Assembly: GCF_918698155.1 (NCBI RefSeq)
Contig: NZ_CAKKLX010000009.1
Span: 1 to 64,000, forward strand
Reading direction: 5' to 3'
DNA from: Roseomonas sp. CECT 9278
Lineage (GTDB): Bacteria; Pseudomonadota; Alphaproteobacteria; Acetobacterales; Acetobacteraceae
Length of the DNA stretch: 64,000 bases
Shown here: positions 11,308 through 58,373 of the stretch, in pieces
Position numbering within the stretch: the stretch's first letter is position 1
Layout of the letters: every line of letters begins with the position of its first letter
Made by a program: the position numbers and the translations under genes
The notes under the pieces: generated by a model
The model's input: the letters and a program-made list of their open reading frames with translations, nothing else
Told to the model about the DNA's origin: nothing
Databases searched by the model: none

Positions 11308-12132
11308 TCAGTCGCGCAGGCCGGCCCGGCGCAGGCGCAGCGCGGTCTCGGAGATCACCGCGGCCTCGATCGCGCTGCCGGTGAAGCCATCGAGCGCAAG
11401 CGCGCTGGCATCGCCAGGCACCTGGCCCGGCAGCCCGCCGCCCAGCACCAGGATCGCGGCATTGCGCGAGGCGCGGCGGAGGCCCTCCACGGTGGCGCGG
11501 ATATCGGCCTCCTGCGCGCCGGGCTCGATGCTGATCCAGGCGACGTCGAAGGTGCGGTCATGCGCCGAATCGCGCGCTTCCTCGGCACCGTGGCTCGGCA
11601 CGTCGCACACATCCCAGCCGGCGCGGTCGAAGAAGCGCAGCGCCACGCCGTGCTCCACGCTCGGCATGTCAAGCGCGCCGGACAGCGTCAGCGCGGTGTT
11701 CATGGACGCCGGCTCGCCGCTGCCCGGCACTTCTGCATCGTCCAGCGACAGCAGGCACATGCGCAGCTGCCACACCTTCGCGAGGCGCTCGGTCTGGTCG
11801 AATTCGGTCGGATCGTAGCGCCGCCGCAGCGCATCGGCGGCCGGCAGGATGATGTCGCGGCAGATCGGGCGGAACATGTGCCCATCGGGATTGAGCGCGG
11901 CGAGCGCGGCGATGCCGTCCGCCAGCGTGCCATCGGCCAGGGTGCCCGCCAGGGCGGCGGCGTCGGACCGCCAGGTGCCGGCCCGCGGCGCGCCGAAGCG
12001 CGCGGCCAGCGCCGGCACCAGCAGTTGGGCGGCGACATTCGCCAGGAGGGCGCCGCGACGCGCGGCGGTCAGGGGCATCACCGGGCTGAACCGGGCGGTG
12101 GGCGGTCGGGCGGTCCCGTCGAGCGGCGACAT
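11308..12132 (-). CDS. cobalamin-binding/SCHIC-like regulatory protein (PpaA/AerR-like)
   Basis: A 274-residue soluble protein. The N-terminal half is helical. The C-terminal half (residues about 160-260) has the alternating strand/helix layout of a B12-binding Rossmann domain, beginning with a helix followed by GWDV and ending with the AAILVLGGG strand. The classical D-x-H-x-x-G cobalamin motif is not obvious, which fits divergent PpaA/AerR or SCHIC domains that bind cobalamin or haem as light or redox sensors. A TGT-N12-ACA box upstream and dxs next door are suggestive. An alternative is an ordinary cobalamin-domain protein of unknown role. The domain call is moderate and the regulatory role is inference. 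Confidence 0.45.
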   Translation of the reverse strand: MSPLDGTARPPTARFSPVMPLTAARRGALLANVAAQLLVPALAARFGAPRAGTWRSDAAALAGTLADGTLADGIAALAALNPDGHMFRPICRDIILPAADALRRRYDPTEFDQTERLAKVWQLRMCLLSLDDAEVPGSGEPASMNTALTLSGALDMPSVEHGVALRFFDRAGWDVCDVPSHGAEEARDSAHDRTFDVAWISIEPGAQEADIRATVEGLRRASRNAAILVLGGGLPGQVPGDASALALDGFTGSAIEAAVISETALRLRRAGLRD

Positions 12133-28282: not shown

Positions 28283-28290
28283 TGTTCTAT

Positions 28291-28421
28291 GCCCTCAGGC
28301 GCCGGGCGCCGGCATGCGCCGGCTTGGCTTGCGCGCCGGGCACTGGTGCGTGGGCGGCGGCTTGCGGGTTGGGCGCGGTCGCGCTGCGCGCTCGCGGATC
28401 GTGCAGGGGCACGATCCGGTT
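28291..28421 (+). repeat. 131-bp multi-hairpin dispersed element, single copy
   Basis: It begins GCCCTCAGGCGCCGGGCGCC and ends after a GGATCGTGC/GCACGATCC hairpin, matching the units of the array at 40050-40590 over their full length. Hairpin sequences differ from the array units but stay paired: GCCGGC/GCCGGC here against GCCCGC/GCGGGC there. It lies between the tctB stop and the phzF start codon, in opposite orientation to both genes. Confidence 0.75.
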
Positions 28422-30140: not shown

Positions 30141-30539
30141 ATGACGGGGAACGGGGATGCGCCGCGGCTTGGCCGCAGGCTGCTGGTGTTGCGCGTGGCC
30201 GGGCTGGGTGCCGCGGCGGCCACGCTGTCGGGCTGCGTCGTGGCGCCGGCGCCGGTCTATGCGCCCGGCCCGGTCCGCACGGGGCGGACCGATGCCGACC
30301 CCAGTGACGGGCCTGGCCAGGGCCGTGGCGGCTACCGTGGCCCGGCGCGCACCGGGGTGACCGACGCCGATCCCAATGACGGGCCCGGCCAGGGGCGCGG
30401 CGGGTATCGCGGGCGCGCCCGCACCGGGCTGACGGATTCCGACCCGAATGATGGTCCGGGCCAGGGGCGCGGCGGCGGCCGGCGCCAGGTCAGCGACAGC
30501 GACCCGCGCGACGCGCCGGGCCGCGGCCGCGGCTGGTAG
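30141..30539 (+). CDS. D-x-D-P-x-D repeat protein A, probable lipoprotein
   Basis: A 132-residue protein with GGGGGAGGA upstream of the ATG. Residues 10-32 form a leader: Gly-Arg-Arg followed by LLVLRVAGLGAAAATLSGC, combining a twin-Arg pair with a lipobox that would lipidate Cys32. Residues 46-132 are four repeats of 16-24 residues, each holding a D-[AS]-D-P-[SNR]-D core preceded by Thr or Ser and followed by G-P-G-Q-G-R-G or a similar Gly/Arg tail; the last ends in GRGRGW. No known domain is present. It is the first of three paralogues leading to a JmjC oxygenase gene, and it is the likely substrate or partner of that enzyme (inference). Confidence 0.75.
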   Translation: MTGNGDAPRLGRRLLVLRVAGLGAAAATLSGCVVAPAPVYAPGPVRTGRTDADPSDGPGQGRGGYRGPARTGVTDADPNDGPGQGRGGYRGRARTGLTDSDPNDGPGQGRGGGRRQVSDSDPRDAPGRGRGW

Positions 30540-30700
30540 CGACCCGCGCGCGCGCCGCATGCGGCGGGGCCGGTGCGGCGGCGCTGTTGCGAAATCCTTC
30601 GCAGGACCGGTGTGCCAGCGCACTCACCAAGCCTTCACGCCGCTTGCCGAAACTGTTCCGCCGGGCCGATGATGCAGCCAGGGGAAGGAGCAGTGCTGAG

Positions 30701-31228
30701 ATGACCGATCGGGATTCCGCCCAGGACGCACCACCGCCTGCAGCCGCGGAGGATGGCGAGGAGCGTCGGCTTGGCCGGCGCCTGCTGGTGCTGCGCGTGG
30801 CCGCGGCCGCGGGCGTGGCGGCCATTGCGGCCCCGGCGGCGCAGGCGCTGGAGGCCACGCCCGTCCAGTACCGTACCGGGCTCACGGATTCCGACCCCAG
30901 CGACGGGCCAGGCTATGGCCGCGGCGGTGGCCGCCGTGGCACCGGCATCACTGATGCCGATCCCAGCGACGGGCCGGGCTTCGGGCGTGGCGGCTATCGC
31001 GGGCCGGCGCGCACCGGGATCACCGATGCCGACCCCAATGACGGCCCCGGCCAGGGCCGCGGCGGTTATCGCCCGCGCCCGCAGGGCCGGCCCTATACCG
31101 GCATCAACGATGGCGACCCGGGCGATCCGTCCGGCTACGGCACCGGCTGGCGCCAACGCCAGCAGCCGCGTGGCGTGACCGACAACGACCCGAACGACGC
31201 GCCGGGCCGCGGCCGCGGCTGGCGCTGA
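30701..31228 (+). CDS. D-x-D-P-x-D repeat protein B, exported
   Basis: A 175-residue paralogue of protein A. ATG 30701 has GGAG 10 bases upstream; longer readings lack the shared start. The leader (LGRRLLVLRVAAAAGVAAIAAP, ending AQA) keeps the Arg-Arg pair but has a signal-peptidase I site instead of a lipobox. Residues 58-175 contain five repeats of 18-28 residues with cores DSDPSD, DADPSD, DADPND, DGDPGD and DNDPND, plus Tyr, Phe or Gln at a variable position before Gly-Arg-Gly. It ends in GRGRGWR, nearly as in A. A 161-base gap separates it from A; C follows after 24 bases. Confidence 0.75.
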   Translation: MTDRDSAQDAPPPAAAEDGEERRLGRRLLVLRVAAAAGVAAIAAPAAQALEATPVQYRTGLTDSDPSDGPGYGRGGGRRGTGITDADPSDGPGFGRGGYRGPARTGITDADPNDGPGQGRGGYRPRPQGRPYTGINDGDPGDPSGYGTGWRQRQQPRGVTDNDPNDAPGRGRGWR

Positions 31229-31252
31229 CCGGCACCCGCCGGACGCGCTGCG

Positions 31253-31708
31253 ATGGCCGGGGATGACCTCACGCGGCGCGGACGGCTCTCGCGCCGCCTG
31301 CTGGTGCTGTGTACGCCGGCGGCCGCGCTGGTGCCGATCGCGGCGCTGGTGCCCGCTGTCGCGCAGGCCCAGCCGCGCACCGGCTATTCGGATGGCGACC
31401 CGCGCGACCCGGCGGGGCGCGGGCGGCCCTATACCGGGCAATCCGACAGTGATCCGCGCGATGGCGCCGGACGCGGCCGGCCCCGCACCGGCTATTCCGA
31501 CAGCGACCCGCGCGACGGCGCCGGCCGCGGTCGCCCGCGCACCGGTGTGTCCGACAGCGACCCCCGCGATGCCGCCGGGCGTGGCCGCCCCCGCACCGGC
31601 CTGTCCGACAGCGACCCCCGCGATGCCGCGGGCCGTGGCCGCCCGCGCACCGGCTTTTCCGACAGCGACCCGCGCGATGCCGCCGGGCGCGGACGAGGAT
31701 CCCGATGA
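31253..31708 (+). CDS. D-x-D-P-x-D repeat protein C, exported
   Basis: A 151-residue paralogue of A and B. The leader SRRLLVLCTPAAALVPIAA, ending AVAQA, has Ser-Arg-Arg as in Tat signals. Residues 42-151 are six nearly identical 18-residue repeats (54 bases each): R/Y-T-G-x-S-D-S-D-P-R-D-x-A-G-R-G-R-P, the variable residue being Tyr, Gln, Val, Leu or Phe. Near-identity at DNA level suggests recent expansion by slippage or recombination. Its stop overlaps the start of the JmjC oxygenase by ATGA, so enzyme synthesis depends on translation of this gene. Asp, Asn, Arg and Pro are all conceivable hydroxylation targets. Confidence 0.78.
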   Translation: MAGDDLTRRGRLSRRLLVLCTPAAALVPIAALVPAVAQAQPRTGYSDGDPRDPAGRGRPYTGQSDSDPRDGAGRGRPRTGYSDSDPRDGAGRGRPRTGVSDSDPRDAAGRGRPRTGLSDSDPRDAAGRGRPRTGFSDSDPRDAAGRGRGSR

Positions 31709-32883
31709 CTGCCACCTTGGCTGAAGACGCCTGGTCCCTGGCCTTCGGGACGATGCCGCTCGAGGACGGGCTGGCGCTGCGCGAGGCCACCGCCTGGCGC
31801 CTGATGCCGGGCAACGACCCCGACCGCTATGCCGGGCTGCTGTCGATCGCCGACCTCGATGCCTTCCTGCGCACGGATGCCGCGCGGACGCCGCGGGTGT
31901 CGATGGCCGATGGCGCCCGCAAGGGCGGCGCCGGCGTGCCGTTCGAGGAATACATCGAGGATGGCGGCGACCGCGTCGACCTGCCGCGACTGCTGGCGCG
32001 CCATGATGATGGCGCGAGCCTGGTGGTCTCGCAGTTCCACGAGGTCCATCCGCCGCTGGCACGCTTCTGCCGCGGGCTGGAGAAGGCCTTCCTGCATGGC
32101 GTGCAGGCGAACATCTACCTGACGCCGCCGGGCGCGCAGGGCTTCCGCGTGCATTTCGACACCCATGACGTGCTGGTGCTGCAGGTCTCCGGCCGCAAGG
32201 CGTGGCGGGTGTGGGACGCCATCCCCTATGCCGCGCCGACGCGCCACACGCCCTGGCACAACAATGCCGCGCCCGAGGGCGAGCCCCATGCGCTGCTGAT
32301 GGCGCCGGGCGACGCGCTGTACCTGCCGCGCGGCGTGCTGCACGAGGCGATGGTCCAGGACGGCGCGGAACCGTCGCTGCACGTGACCGTCGGCTTCATG
32401 GAACCAGCGATCGGCGAGATGCTGCGTGACCTGCTGGGCGAGCTGGAGGCGGAGGAACCCGCGCTGCGCGCCGCCATCCCGACCTGGCGCCTGGGCGAAC
32501 CCGAGGGCGTGGCGGCGGTGCGTTCCGTGCTGCGTGGCGCGCTGGCCGCGCTGGGCCATGACGGCCTGGCCGATCGGGTCGCGGTCGCGGCGCTCGACCG
32601 CCTGGTGCGCGACCGCATGTCGTTGCCGCGGCGCGGCCTTGTGGCGCGCGTGCCCGGCCCGCAGGATCGGCTGCTGCTGTCCGAGACGATGCACCACACG
32701 CTGGTGCCGCTGCCCGCGGGCGGCGCCGCGCTGCGCTGGTATGGCGGCGTCGAGACCCTGAGTGCCACGGAGTTCGCCTGGCTGGTCGCGCTGGAGGACG
32801 GCGCGACGCCGGCATCGCTGGGCGAGGACGCGCTGGCCTTCTGCCGCCGCCTCGCCCGCGTCGGGCTGCTGGAGCCCGTCTGA
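31705..32883 (+). CDS. JmjC/cupin-type 2-oxoglutarate oxygenase
   Basis: A 392-residue protein of the Cupin_4/JmjC (ribosomal-oxygenase-like) group. The iron triad is intact: His150-x-Asp152 in GFRVHFDTHDVLVLQ and a distal His213 in GDALYLPRGVLHEAM. The downstream VSGRKAWRVW and the second strand LHVTVGF fit the double-stranded beta-helix, and the C-terminal ~150 residues look like the dimer/winged-helix region of this group. Known members hydroxylate Arg or His in ribosomal proteins; others act on peptides. It overlaps the last of three Asp/Arg-rich repeat proteins by 4 bases, which makes those proteins the best substrate candidates (inference). A ribosomal target remains possible. Confidence 0.85.
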   Translation: MTATLAEDAWSLAFGTMPLEDGLALREATAWRLMPGNDPDRYAGLLSIADLDAFLRTDAARTPRVSMADGARKGGAGVPFEEYIEDGGDRVDLPRLLARHDDGASLVVSQFHEVHPPLARFCRGLEKAFLHGVQANIYLTPPGAQGFRVHFDTHDVLVLQVSGRKAWRVWDAIPYAAPTRHTPWHNNAAPEGEPHALLMAPGDALYLPRGVLHEAMVQDGAEPSLHVTVGFMEPAIGEMLRDLLGELEAEEPALRAAIPTWRLGEPEGVAAVRSVLRGALAALGHDGLADRVAVAALDRLVRDRMSLPRRGLVARVPGPQDRLLLSETMHHTLVPLPAGGAALRWYGGVETLSATEFAWLVALEDGATPASLGEDALAFCRRLARVGLLEPV

Positions 32884-40049: not shown

Positions 40050-40590
40050 GCCCTCAGGCGCCGGGCGCCCGCGGATCGCTGCGCGATCCTAGTTTCTTTG
40101 CCCTCAGGCGCCGGGCGCCCGCATGCGCGGGCTCGGCTTGCGCGCCACGCACGGGTGCGCCGGGCGCGGCTGATGGGTTGGGCGCGGTCGCGCCGTGCGC
40201 TCCCGGATCGCTGCGCGATCCGTTTTGTCTGCCCTCAGGCGCCGGGCGCCCGCATGCGCGGGCTTGGCTTGCGCGCCACGCTTGGGTGCGCCGGGCGCGG
40301 CTGATGGGTTGGGCGCGGTCGCGCCGTGCGCTTCCGGATCGCTGCGCGATCCGTTTTGTCTGCCCTCAGGCGCCGGGCGCCCGCATGCGCGGGCTTGGCT
40401 TGCGCGCCACGCACGGGTGCGCCGGGCGCGGCTGATGGGTTGGGCGCGGTCGCGCCGTGCGCTCCCGGATCGCTGCGCGATCCGTTTTGTCTGCCCGTAG
40501 GCGTTGGGCGCCCGCATCCGCGGGCTTGGCTTGCGCGCAACGCGCTGTTGAACCCATCGCGACAGGTTGTCTCGGCGCGGTCGCGCCATA
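40050..40590 (+). repeat. tandem array of the 131-bp multi-hairpin element
   Basis: Full units start at 40100, 40231 and 40362, each at exactly 131-base spacing; a shortened unit (internal deletion) starts at 40050 and a degenerate one at 40493. Each unit begins GCCCTCAGGCGCCGGGCGCC and contains hairpins GCCCGC/GCGGGC, GGCGC/GCGCC and GGATCGC/GCGATCC. 131 is not a multiple of 3, so no frame is conserved and the long reading frames across it are not genes. Related copies are at 28291-28421 and, inverted, 58094-58363. From 40591 to 40735 I see nothing beyond the sod leader. Confidence 0.88.
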
Positions 40591-40735
40591 CGCCACCGAA
40601 CCGCCGCGCGACCCGCCGTTCTGCGCAGGTCGCGGGCGATGTCGGCGCGCCACGCGTTCCGTCCGCCGGCACAACGCGCCTGTTGCCCCGACGTGGCGCG
40701 GGCGCACATTCTCCCGGCATGACAGGGAGAAACCC

Positions 40736-58093: not shown

Positions 58094-58363
58094 CCAGAAT
58101 CTGATCGCGCGACGGCGCGATCCGGGAGCGCACGGCGCGACAGCGCCCGGACCGTCAGTCGCGCGCAGTGCGCCAGTGCGTGGCGTGAAAGCCAGGGCGG
58201 CGCAGGCCGGCGCCCGGCACCCGAGGGCGCAAAATGCGGATCGTGCGGCTGCACGATCCGGGAGCGCAAAGCGCGACCGCGCCCAGACCGTCAGCGATGC
58301 CAGGCGCGCCAGTGCGTGGCGCGCAAGCCAAGCCGCCAGAGGCGGCGCCCGGCGCTTGAGGGC
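58094..58363 (-). repeat. two inverted copies of the multi-hairpin dispersed element
   Basis: Read on the minus strand, units begin at 58363 and 58228 (135-base spacing) with GCCCTCAAGCGCC and GCCCTCGGGTGCC. Both carry a paired GGATCGTGC/GCACGATCC- or GATCGCGC/GCGCGATC-type hairpin, and unit one has a perfect GCGCGCCA/TGGCGCGC hairpin. The sequence lies between the convergent addA and amidohydrolase stops and nearly fills the gap, so it could end both transcripts. Confidence 0.8.
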
Positions 58364-58373
58364 GCAAAACGAC

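Follow-up and report, generated by a model that had tools for sequence, protein, structure and literature searches.

A JmjC oxygenase gene coupled to genes for putatively exported Asp-repeat proteins in Roseomonas: a candidate multi-site hydroxylation system

Three repeat-protein genes and an oxygenase gene

We analyzed a 64,000-nucleotide stretch of Roseomonas sp. CECT 9278 (positions 1 to 64,000 of contig NZ_CAKKLX010000009.1; hereafter, the window), in which three consecutive genes for D-x-D-P-x-D repeat proteins are followed by the gene for a JmjC-type, 2-oxoglutarate (2OG)/Fe(II) oxygenase (Table 1). An earlier description of this locus, made from its letters alone (the sequence-only reading), had counted 4, 5 and 6 repeats in the three genes and an ATGA overlap with a 392-aa oxygenase carrying an intact His150-x-Asp152...His213 triad. 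All of this was confirmed: the motif occurs in frame 4, 5 and 6 times in repeat proteins 1, 2 and 3, 15 times in total, at the coordinates originally reported, and the ATGA at 31705-31708 joins repeat gene 3 to the oxygenase gene. A six-frame scan of the whole window gave 17 matches to the motif, comprising these 15, one at 31692 in another forward frame and one at 11527.

Table 1. Features of the repeat-protein and oxygenase locus, in window coordinates
Feature	Position	Strand	Description
Repeat protein 1 gene	30141..30539	+	132 aa; putative Tat-exported lipoprotein with an RR signal and lipobox LSGC (Cys32), followed by 4 DxDPxD units
Repeat protein 2 gene	30701..31228	+	175 aa; 5 DxDPxD units, preceded by an LGRRLLVLRVA signal with AQA at its end
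Repeat protein 3 gene	31253..31708	+	151 aa; 6 regular 18-aa units (TGxSDSDPRDxAGRGRPR kind), preceded by an SRRLLVL signal with AQA at its end
JmjC_2 (PF08007) 2OG/Fe(II) oxygenase gene	31705..32883	+	392 aa; His150, Asp152, His213 intact
Catalytic JmjC domain of the oxygenase	32053..32418	+	Residues 117-238; Pfam
C-terminal winged-helix / RRE-fold domain of the oxygenase	32638..32880	+	Residues 312-392; AlphaFold2 and VIA-align
Gene 1 tandem array, 72 nt	30266..30476	+	Tandem Repeats Finder
Gene 2 tandem array, 66/72 nt	30875..31072	+	Tandem Repeats Finder
Gene 3 tandem array, 54 nt (also read as 108 and 162 nt)	31372..31692	+	Tandem Repeats Finder

Against orthologues, the ratio of nonsynonymous to synonymous substitution rates (dN/dS; Nei-Gojobori, 11 comparisons in all) was 0.11-0.24 for the repeat genes (gene 1, 0.13-0.20 in two comparisons; gene 2, 0.17-0.24 in three; gene 3, 0.11-0.24 in three) and 0.16-0.23 for the oxygenase gene. 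We therefore regard the reading frames as genuine, and the ratios indicate purifying selection on all four genes. The three repeat proteins had no Pfam match at E<=1, and NCBIfam returned only two weak, below-cut-off matches, both over signal regions.

Pairing of oxygenase and repeat genes across genomes

We sampled 150 genomes of the family, the window's own included. A JmjC orthologue (E<1e-45) is present in 19 of them and a repeat protein (E<=1e-6) in 20, and all 19 lie within the 20 (Fisher's exact p 3.6e-23, which is only indicative as the genomes are related). The co-occurrence of leader, repeats and JmjC that the sequence-only reading had proposed looking for is thus nearly perfect in the family. 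A repeat gene lies immediately upstream of the oxygenase gene in 18 of the 19 loci, and in the non-adjacent exception, G005, it is found on another contig. Within the window's genus, G188 and G224 have the oxygenase without an adjoining repeat gene and carry a repeat gene elsewhere in the genome, while G169 and G178 have neither a JmjC (at E<=1e-25) nor a repeat protein. A related-locus search gave 11 named loci, nine from Neoroseomonas or Roseomonas and two from metagenome-assembled genomes; in each, the oxygenase gene is preceded by between one and three repeat genes, and every locus includes a copy of the repeat protein 2 type.

The pairing extends beyond the family. A sample of 385 genomes of the class, searched with a divergent profile, held 12 oxygenase loci in 11 genomes outside the family (E<1e-60), and a repeat gene adjoins the oxygenase gene in 11 of the 12 (downstream in one, L159). 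Adjacency is retained while the enzyme diverges to 26-31% identity. Five more loci came from a sample of 349 genomes of the phylum; all belong to the same class, and four (G910, G906, G781 and G806) have repeat genes divergent from the oxygenase gene. A single-query repeat-protein search of the class found only 5 of the 385 genomes because longer-loop repeats were probably missed, and adjacency was therefore read directly. A plasmid search with a longer-loop repeat protein gave no match.

As a control, we ran the same script on other JmjC_2 genes, a group that we named RoxA-like for convenience only. It found a repeat gene in 43 of 49 orthologous loci and in none of 38 control stretches, most with flanks of about 1.5 kb, which represent 30 distinct loci (eight are second copies). 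Among the six orthologous misses, G005, G188 and G224 have their repeat genes elsewhere, G910 has adjacent, looser repeats, and no repeat gene was found in G442 and G929. The window's genome has a second JmjC_2 gene (G000:C16:38076-39269, L069; 402 aa) of a type present in 30 of the 150 family genomes at E<=1e-5. For the own-genome control JmjC_2, E is about 1e-10 to 1e-9 against NO66, MINA53 and YxbC, and only 0.002 against YcfD. Judged from distribution and gene order, the enzyme and the repeat proteins form a two-part system and their coupling is real.

Repeat genes also lie apart from the oxygenase gene in many genomes (L191-L200, L202-L205, L170, L172, L173), which suggests that one enzyme may serve several substrates in trans. 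The window's own genome has one such orphan (G000:C2:36203-36757; L018:1483-2190, minus strand), whose product carries an RR signal and D-x-D-P-x-D units; no oxygenase was recognized in the 3.4 kb around it, and a DSBA-family gene lies beyond. When the neighbors of orphan repeat genes from 19 stretches were clustered, a common partner never appeared in more than six, the pattern having missed the repeat gene in L201 and likewise in L171. ShlB/FhaC-type genes occur near the repeat genes of L203 and L205.

Repeat units, export signals and the oxygenase

The repeat proteins carry about 2-12 copies of a unit that has two main forms, one being T-G-x-[TS]-D-x-D-P-x-D-x-x-G-x-G-R-G and the other having a longer loop, such as D-x-D-[ST]-G-x-x-A-D or TDSDTGAYADPVGQGRG. 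Linked repeat proteins are 90 to about 390 aa long. Among 385 units from 46 loci, scored for 13 residue types, Asp is the only type present in every unit, followed by Gly (383), Arg (371), Thr (358), Pro (347, hence absent from 38), Ser (301), Asn (232) and His (20, with none in the window's units). A pattern that fixes the first Asp and restricts the last position to D or S extracted 379 of the units, and motif position 3, which this pattern leaves unconstrained, is Asp in 372 of the 379. When the repeat region of each of 47 loci is taken as a whole, L156 and L206 have no Arg, L206 also has neither Gly nor Thr, three loci have no Asn and 31 have no His. Arg, Asn, Gly, Thr and His were each rejected as a universal target residue because each is wholly missing from at least one linked locus. 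The sequence-only reading had offered Asp, Asn, Arg or Pro as the modified residue, a list that can be narrowed: Asp is the best candidate because Arg and Asn are missing from some whole repeat regions and Pro from 38 of the 385 units. By elimination, the candidate ranking would be Asp first, then Arg and Pro, and we see an even chance that Asp is the residue the enzyme hydroxylates.

The N-terminus of the repeat proteins consists of an RR-containing n-region, a hydrophobic stretch and then AxA or a lipobox. By script, RR is present in 66 of 67 repeat open reading frames, the 67th (L004) carrying RR on reading, and AxA or a lipobox follows in 60 of the 67; for some of these frames the called start lies too far upstream. 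Repeat proteins from outside the family have a textbook twin-arginine translocation (Tat) motif (SRRSFL, SRRSFV, GRRGFM). The window's genome encodes TatC (G000:C4, E 1.4e-74). Given the RR motif, the hydrophobic stretch, the AxA or lipobox and the presence of TatC, we therefore read the common leader as a Tat-type targeting signal and not as a recognizable leader of a ribosomally synthesized and post-translationally modified peptide (RiPP). The shared Arg-Arg leader noted earlier survives as a common element with a different predicted role, and the exported product foreseen with it agrees with these signals. Some repeat proteins from outside the family have an L[ST]D[DE][DQ]I-like element ahead of RR, which could be a docking element; it was found by regular expression in 6 of the 67 and by reading also in L067 and L186-L189, with LEPDEI in Streptomyces clavuligerus, and is absent from the window's three repeat proteins.

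The oxygenase matches JmjC_2 (PF08007) in Pfam at E 1.6e-25, with 89.5 bits against a curated cut-off of 22. No change is seen at His150, Asp152 or His213 among 12 close sequences, nor at these residues or K165 across 16 divergent relatives; K165, which we take to be the 2OG-binding Lys, aligns with a Lys of NO66. A profile search of solved structures placed NO66 and MINA53 nearest (E about 1e-20), with YcfD at 2.5e-5. A full-length AlphaFold2 model built from the 12 close sequences was poor (mean predicted local distance difference test score, pLDDT, of 42; catalytic domain unusable), and the C-terminal domain was therefore modeled alone (residues 305-392, 88 residues), reaching pLDDT 89 and a predicted template modeling score (pTM) of 0.77. 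VIA-align aligned this domain to MINA53 (4bxf, Z 8.2, root-mean-square deviation (rmsd) 3.4 over 86; 2xdv, Z 9.9, rmsd 4.6 over 85) and to RiPP recognition elements (RREs; TbiB1, Z 8.4, rmsd 2.0 over 67; PqqD, Z 8.1, rmsd 2.5 over 78). Pfam PqqD had no match in the oxygenase, the likeness to RREs being one of fold alone. According to the model, the C-terminal fold is one common to the winged helices of ribosomal oxygenases (ROX) and to RREs.

A related enzyme offers a second pairing. On a plasmid of S. clavuligerus, the gene for a 48-aa peptide ends 91 nt ahead of a JmjC/cupin gene. The peptide ends VIADNDPSDPPIAIADPDPFDPVI and contains two D-x-D-P-x-D motifs, IADNDPSDPPI and IADPDPFDPVI; it has no RR signal and no GRG. 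The enzyme is 35% identical over 92% of the repeat-linked enzyme of G471 (E 1e-65). In a midpoint-rooted tree, one side of 31 rows includes every repeat-linked enzyme, and the S. clavuligerus enzyme is on that side (support 97/95). There it belongs, with the non-window repeat-linked enzymes, to a group of 20 rows (93/92, below the tool's star) that also includes four rows without known repeats (L068, L164, L208, L209). We take this pair as the best independent sign that this enzyme branch may recognize D-x-D-P-x-D.

Other Streptomyces plasmids carry a different cassette, in which a peptide of 43-52 aa, with SDGND or SDMND close to its C-terminus, is encoded together with a JmjC/cupin enzyme and an aldo/keto reductase, usually with one more gene (APH-like in L219). 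The cassette is present in 11 of the 13 non-clavuligerus Streptomyces loci opened (L207, L210-L213, L215-L220), and the four of its enzymes included in the tree are placed with the RoxA-like group (97/95). Judged from a limited literature search, it may be an undescribed small-peptide modification cassette. Further JmjC relatives were seen in L208 (Rhizobium etli pRetIE4803b), where a radical SAM/SPASM gene, the gene for a 77-aa peptide and further genes of unknown kind give a RiPP-like context; in L229 (Pseudanabaena), near a LanM gene; and in L230 (Mycetohabitans), near a radical SAM gene.

Proposed hydroxylation and its alternatives

The explanation that we find best, and rather probable as a whole, is that a cytoplasmic JmjC hydroxylase modifies many units of the Tat-exported repeat proteins, probably at aspartates. 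That the enzyme acts on the repeat proteins is very probable from gene distribution, and multi-site hydroxylation of these proteins is probable because the oxygenase is rarely found without them. The enzyme would hold its substrate in the cytoplasm, perhaps through the RRE-fold domain, and would use Fe(II), O2 and 2OG to hydroxylate the units, most likely on the conserved aspartates at their beta-carbons; it might also serve substrates whose genes lie elsewhere in the genome. The hydroxylated proteins would then leave via Tat and lose the signal peptide, with the gene 1 product kept as a lipoprotein, and would act in the periplasm or on the surface. There, hydroxyaspartate arrays could, as a guess, bind metal or Ca2+, a role for the modified repeats that we consider doubtful. 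Tentatively, these elements can be joined into a broader hypothesis, in which a ROX-family oxygenase would make an exported poly-(beta-hydroxyaspartate) protein, O2- and 2OG-dependent, metal-chelating, and located on the surface or in the periplasm. D-x-D-P-x-D would be a portable code, shared by the Tat proteins of Alphaproteobacteria and the 48-aa peptide of S. clavuligerus, and NO66 and MINA53 might in that case have a common origin with RRE-guided peptide hydroxylases.

Several observations weigh against hydroxylation at Asp, or against the pairing and docking that it would involve. The pairing, the signals and the fold are known here from sequences and models, and it is from these that we infer hydroxylation. 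The known PF08007 enzymes, as described in passages of PMC4295552 and PMC6006756, hydroxylate Arg or His residues and not Asp. Every one of the 47 loci has Pro and Ser, as well as Asp, somewhere in its repeat region. The first and last Asp columns are circular because the unit pattern constrained them; the S. clavuligerus peptide, free of this circularity, is an independent sequence case for the motif Asp. As for distribution, G106 (an assembly of about 250 contigs) has repeat genes without a JmjC orthologue, and G091 has a JmjC (E 7.5e-31, short of the cut-off) without repeats, next to what we take, by its look, to be a TonB receptor gene. The class exception, G442, has a related JmjC for which no repeat gene was found, on a contig that ends just downstream, and in the phylum sample the same holds for G929, a related JmjC with no repeat gene found. 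Concerning the fold, the unrelated methyltransferase 8hkr reaches Z 8.3, and Z near 8 is common with VIA-align; Foldseek gave no match for the C-terminal domain at E<=0.001 (best E 0.04, probability 0.99); and the winged-helix fold is also present in ROX enzymes of ribosomal function.

The enzyme might instead act on the repeat proteins at another residue. The candidates are Arg in the terminal GRG (at C-3) and Pro in DxDP, with Ser less likely. This alternative, which we judge unlikely, draws on the frequency of Arg (371 of 385 units), Pro (347) and Ser (301), on the persistence of Pro and Ser in every locus, and on YcfD, which hydroxylates an Arg beta-carbon (passage of PMC4295552), with uL16 Arg81 as the parallel. 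However, the repeat regions of L156 and of the S. clavuligerus peptide contain no Arg at all, one repeat protein of L188 lacks Pro throughout, as do all DxD units of L162 except one, and the Ser positions are variable.

Alternatively, hydroxylation could be the first step toward a RiPP-like product, with the units then cut or cyclized to small peptides by enzymes encoded elsewhere. Relatives of the enzyme stand beside small peptides and radical SAM, LanM or aldo/keto reductase genes in Streptomyces, Rhizobium, Pseudanabaena and Mycetohabitans, and a RiPP-macrocyclizing 2OG enzyme is among the references of PMC12710340. We nevertheless consider such a multi-step route improbable, as the signal sequences are Tat-type and a third gene family appears in no more than 9 of 36 stretches (32 of them around the oxygenase) when neighboring genes, called heuristically, are clustered. 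The absence of any other obvious operon partner, as first read, therefore holds as far as tested. No shared gene for a dedicated leader protease or transporter emerged from this clustering, and Pfam identified five window neighbors as TctA, TctB, TctC, rhodanese and RlmN. Because neither was recognized, the product may be a processed protein and not a classical RiPP. The RiPP-like system suggested by the sequence-only reading is therefore only partly sustained: the RRE-fold domain and the 48-aa DxDPxD peptide beside the S. clavuligerus homologue fit it, and so does the clustering of a precursor-type gene with a modifying enzyme (18 of 19 family and 11 of 12 class loci), in which the repeats would presumably be the substrate, whereas the export signal does not.

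An ordinary ribosomal oxygenase, acting on uL16, uL2, uL15 or bL27 and lying beside the repeat genes by chance, would account for the nearest sequence and fold matches, which are NO66 and MINA53 (E 1e-20) and, more weakly, YcfD (2.5e-5). This is very improbable, since the distribution of the enzyme tracks the repeat proteins (19 of the 150 family genomes), the genome has the second JmjC_2 on G000:C16 (a type present in 30 of the 150 at E<=1e-5), and adjacency is kept across families against none of the 30 distinct control loci. Action on uL16 or bL27 only, which the sequence-only reading had named as the opposing outcome, is likewise made unlikely by this distribution, and the co-occurrence elsewhere that it had asked about was found (11 of 12 class loci adjacent). 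Least probable of all is a non-enzymatic chaperone or Tat escort: dedicated cytoplasmic chaperones exist for some Tat substrates and an RRE-type domain is predicted here, but none of 16 divergent members departs from H150, D152, H213 and K165.

Asp hydroxylation of exported repeats would have partial counterparts among known systems. The oxygenase is like NO66 (RIOX1), MINA53 (RIOX2) and YcfD/RoxA, all PF08007, in sequence (E 1e-20 to NO66/MINA53) and in its winged helix, and unlike them in its genetic tie to exported Asp-repeat proteins and not to ribosomal proteins, in window units that lack His, and in a many-site substrate. AspH carries out aspartyl/asparaginyl beta-hydroxylation of epidermal growth factor (EGF)-like domains and is an endoplasmic reticulum enzyme of another family, acting on an EGF fold. 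By analogy, only the proposed chemistry would be alike, with beta-hydroxy-Asp formed at many positions in a secreted repeat protein and possible Ca2+ ligands; the enzyme family differs, the setting here would be the cytosol and not the endoplasmic reticulum, and there is no EGF fold. Collagen prolyl hydroxylation offers a similar analogy, a 2OG oxygenase acting on many repeats of an exported protein, but its residue, enzyme family and fold differ from those of the JmjC/Asp-repeat system.

Closer to the present case, a passage of PMC12710340 describes PF08007 proteins of fish and algae that carry fused RRE-like domains, with bacterial homologues of about 30% identity in "RiPP-like genomic contexts". 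Those proteins share the JmjC plus RRE-type domain architecture; they differ in that the substrates here would be Tat-exported repeat proteins, a pairing that this passage does not name. In PMC12257519, BpmG and PbsQ are JmjC/cupin hydroxylases that act, or are predicted to act, on biphenomycin-type RiPPs; there too a cupin/JmjC enzyme is paired with a ribosomal peptide, but PbsQ belongs to a multi-enzyme cluster and hydroxylates the Orn of a small peptide. A search of the open-access literature gave no description of the JmjC/Asp-repeat pairing, the closest remark being the passage of PMC12710340; this does not prove absence from print. The pairing of a JmjC enzyme with an exported Asp-repeat protein thus looks undescribed; it would be a variant of peptide or protein hydroxylation by 2OG oxygenases with RRE-type docking.

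If correct, the proposal would give PF08007 oxygenases a non-ribosomal, genetically defined substrate and would reveal a sequence code for multi-site hydroxylation. It would also provide a bacterial counterpart of collagen- or EGF-type hydroxylation, coupled to Tat export, and connect the ROX enzymes of eukaryotes with peptide tailoring guided by RREs. The pairing of gene 3, which encodes six regular 18-aa units, with a single enzyme would be a compact system in which to study the site and order of modification, processivity and docking, and could serve to produce hydroxylated repeat polymers.

A SapC-type gene lies upstream and divergent in eight family loci of other genera (L055, L057, L059, L062-L066; by tblastn, one confirmed by Pfam), a weak hint of a link to the cell surface. 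Rfam at its gathering threshold gave no match in the window between 25 and 42 kb. Elsewhere in the window, a 131-bp tandem repeat of 3.7 copies lies at 40058-40615, with an 85%-like single copy 11.8 kb away at 28285-28401, and a further tandem array, with a 136-bp period, lies at 58103-58369.

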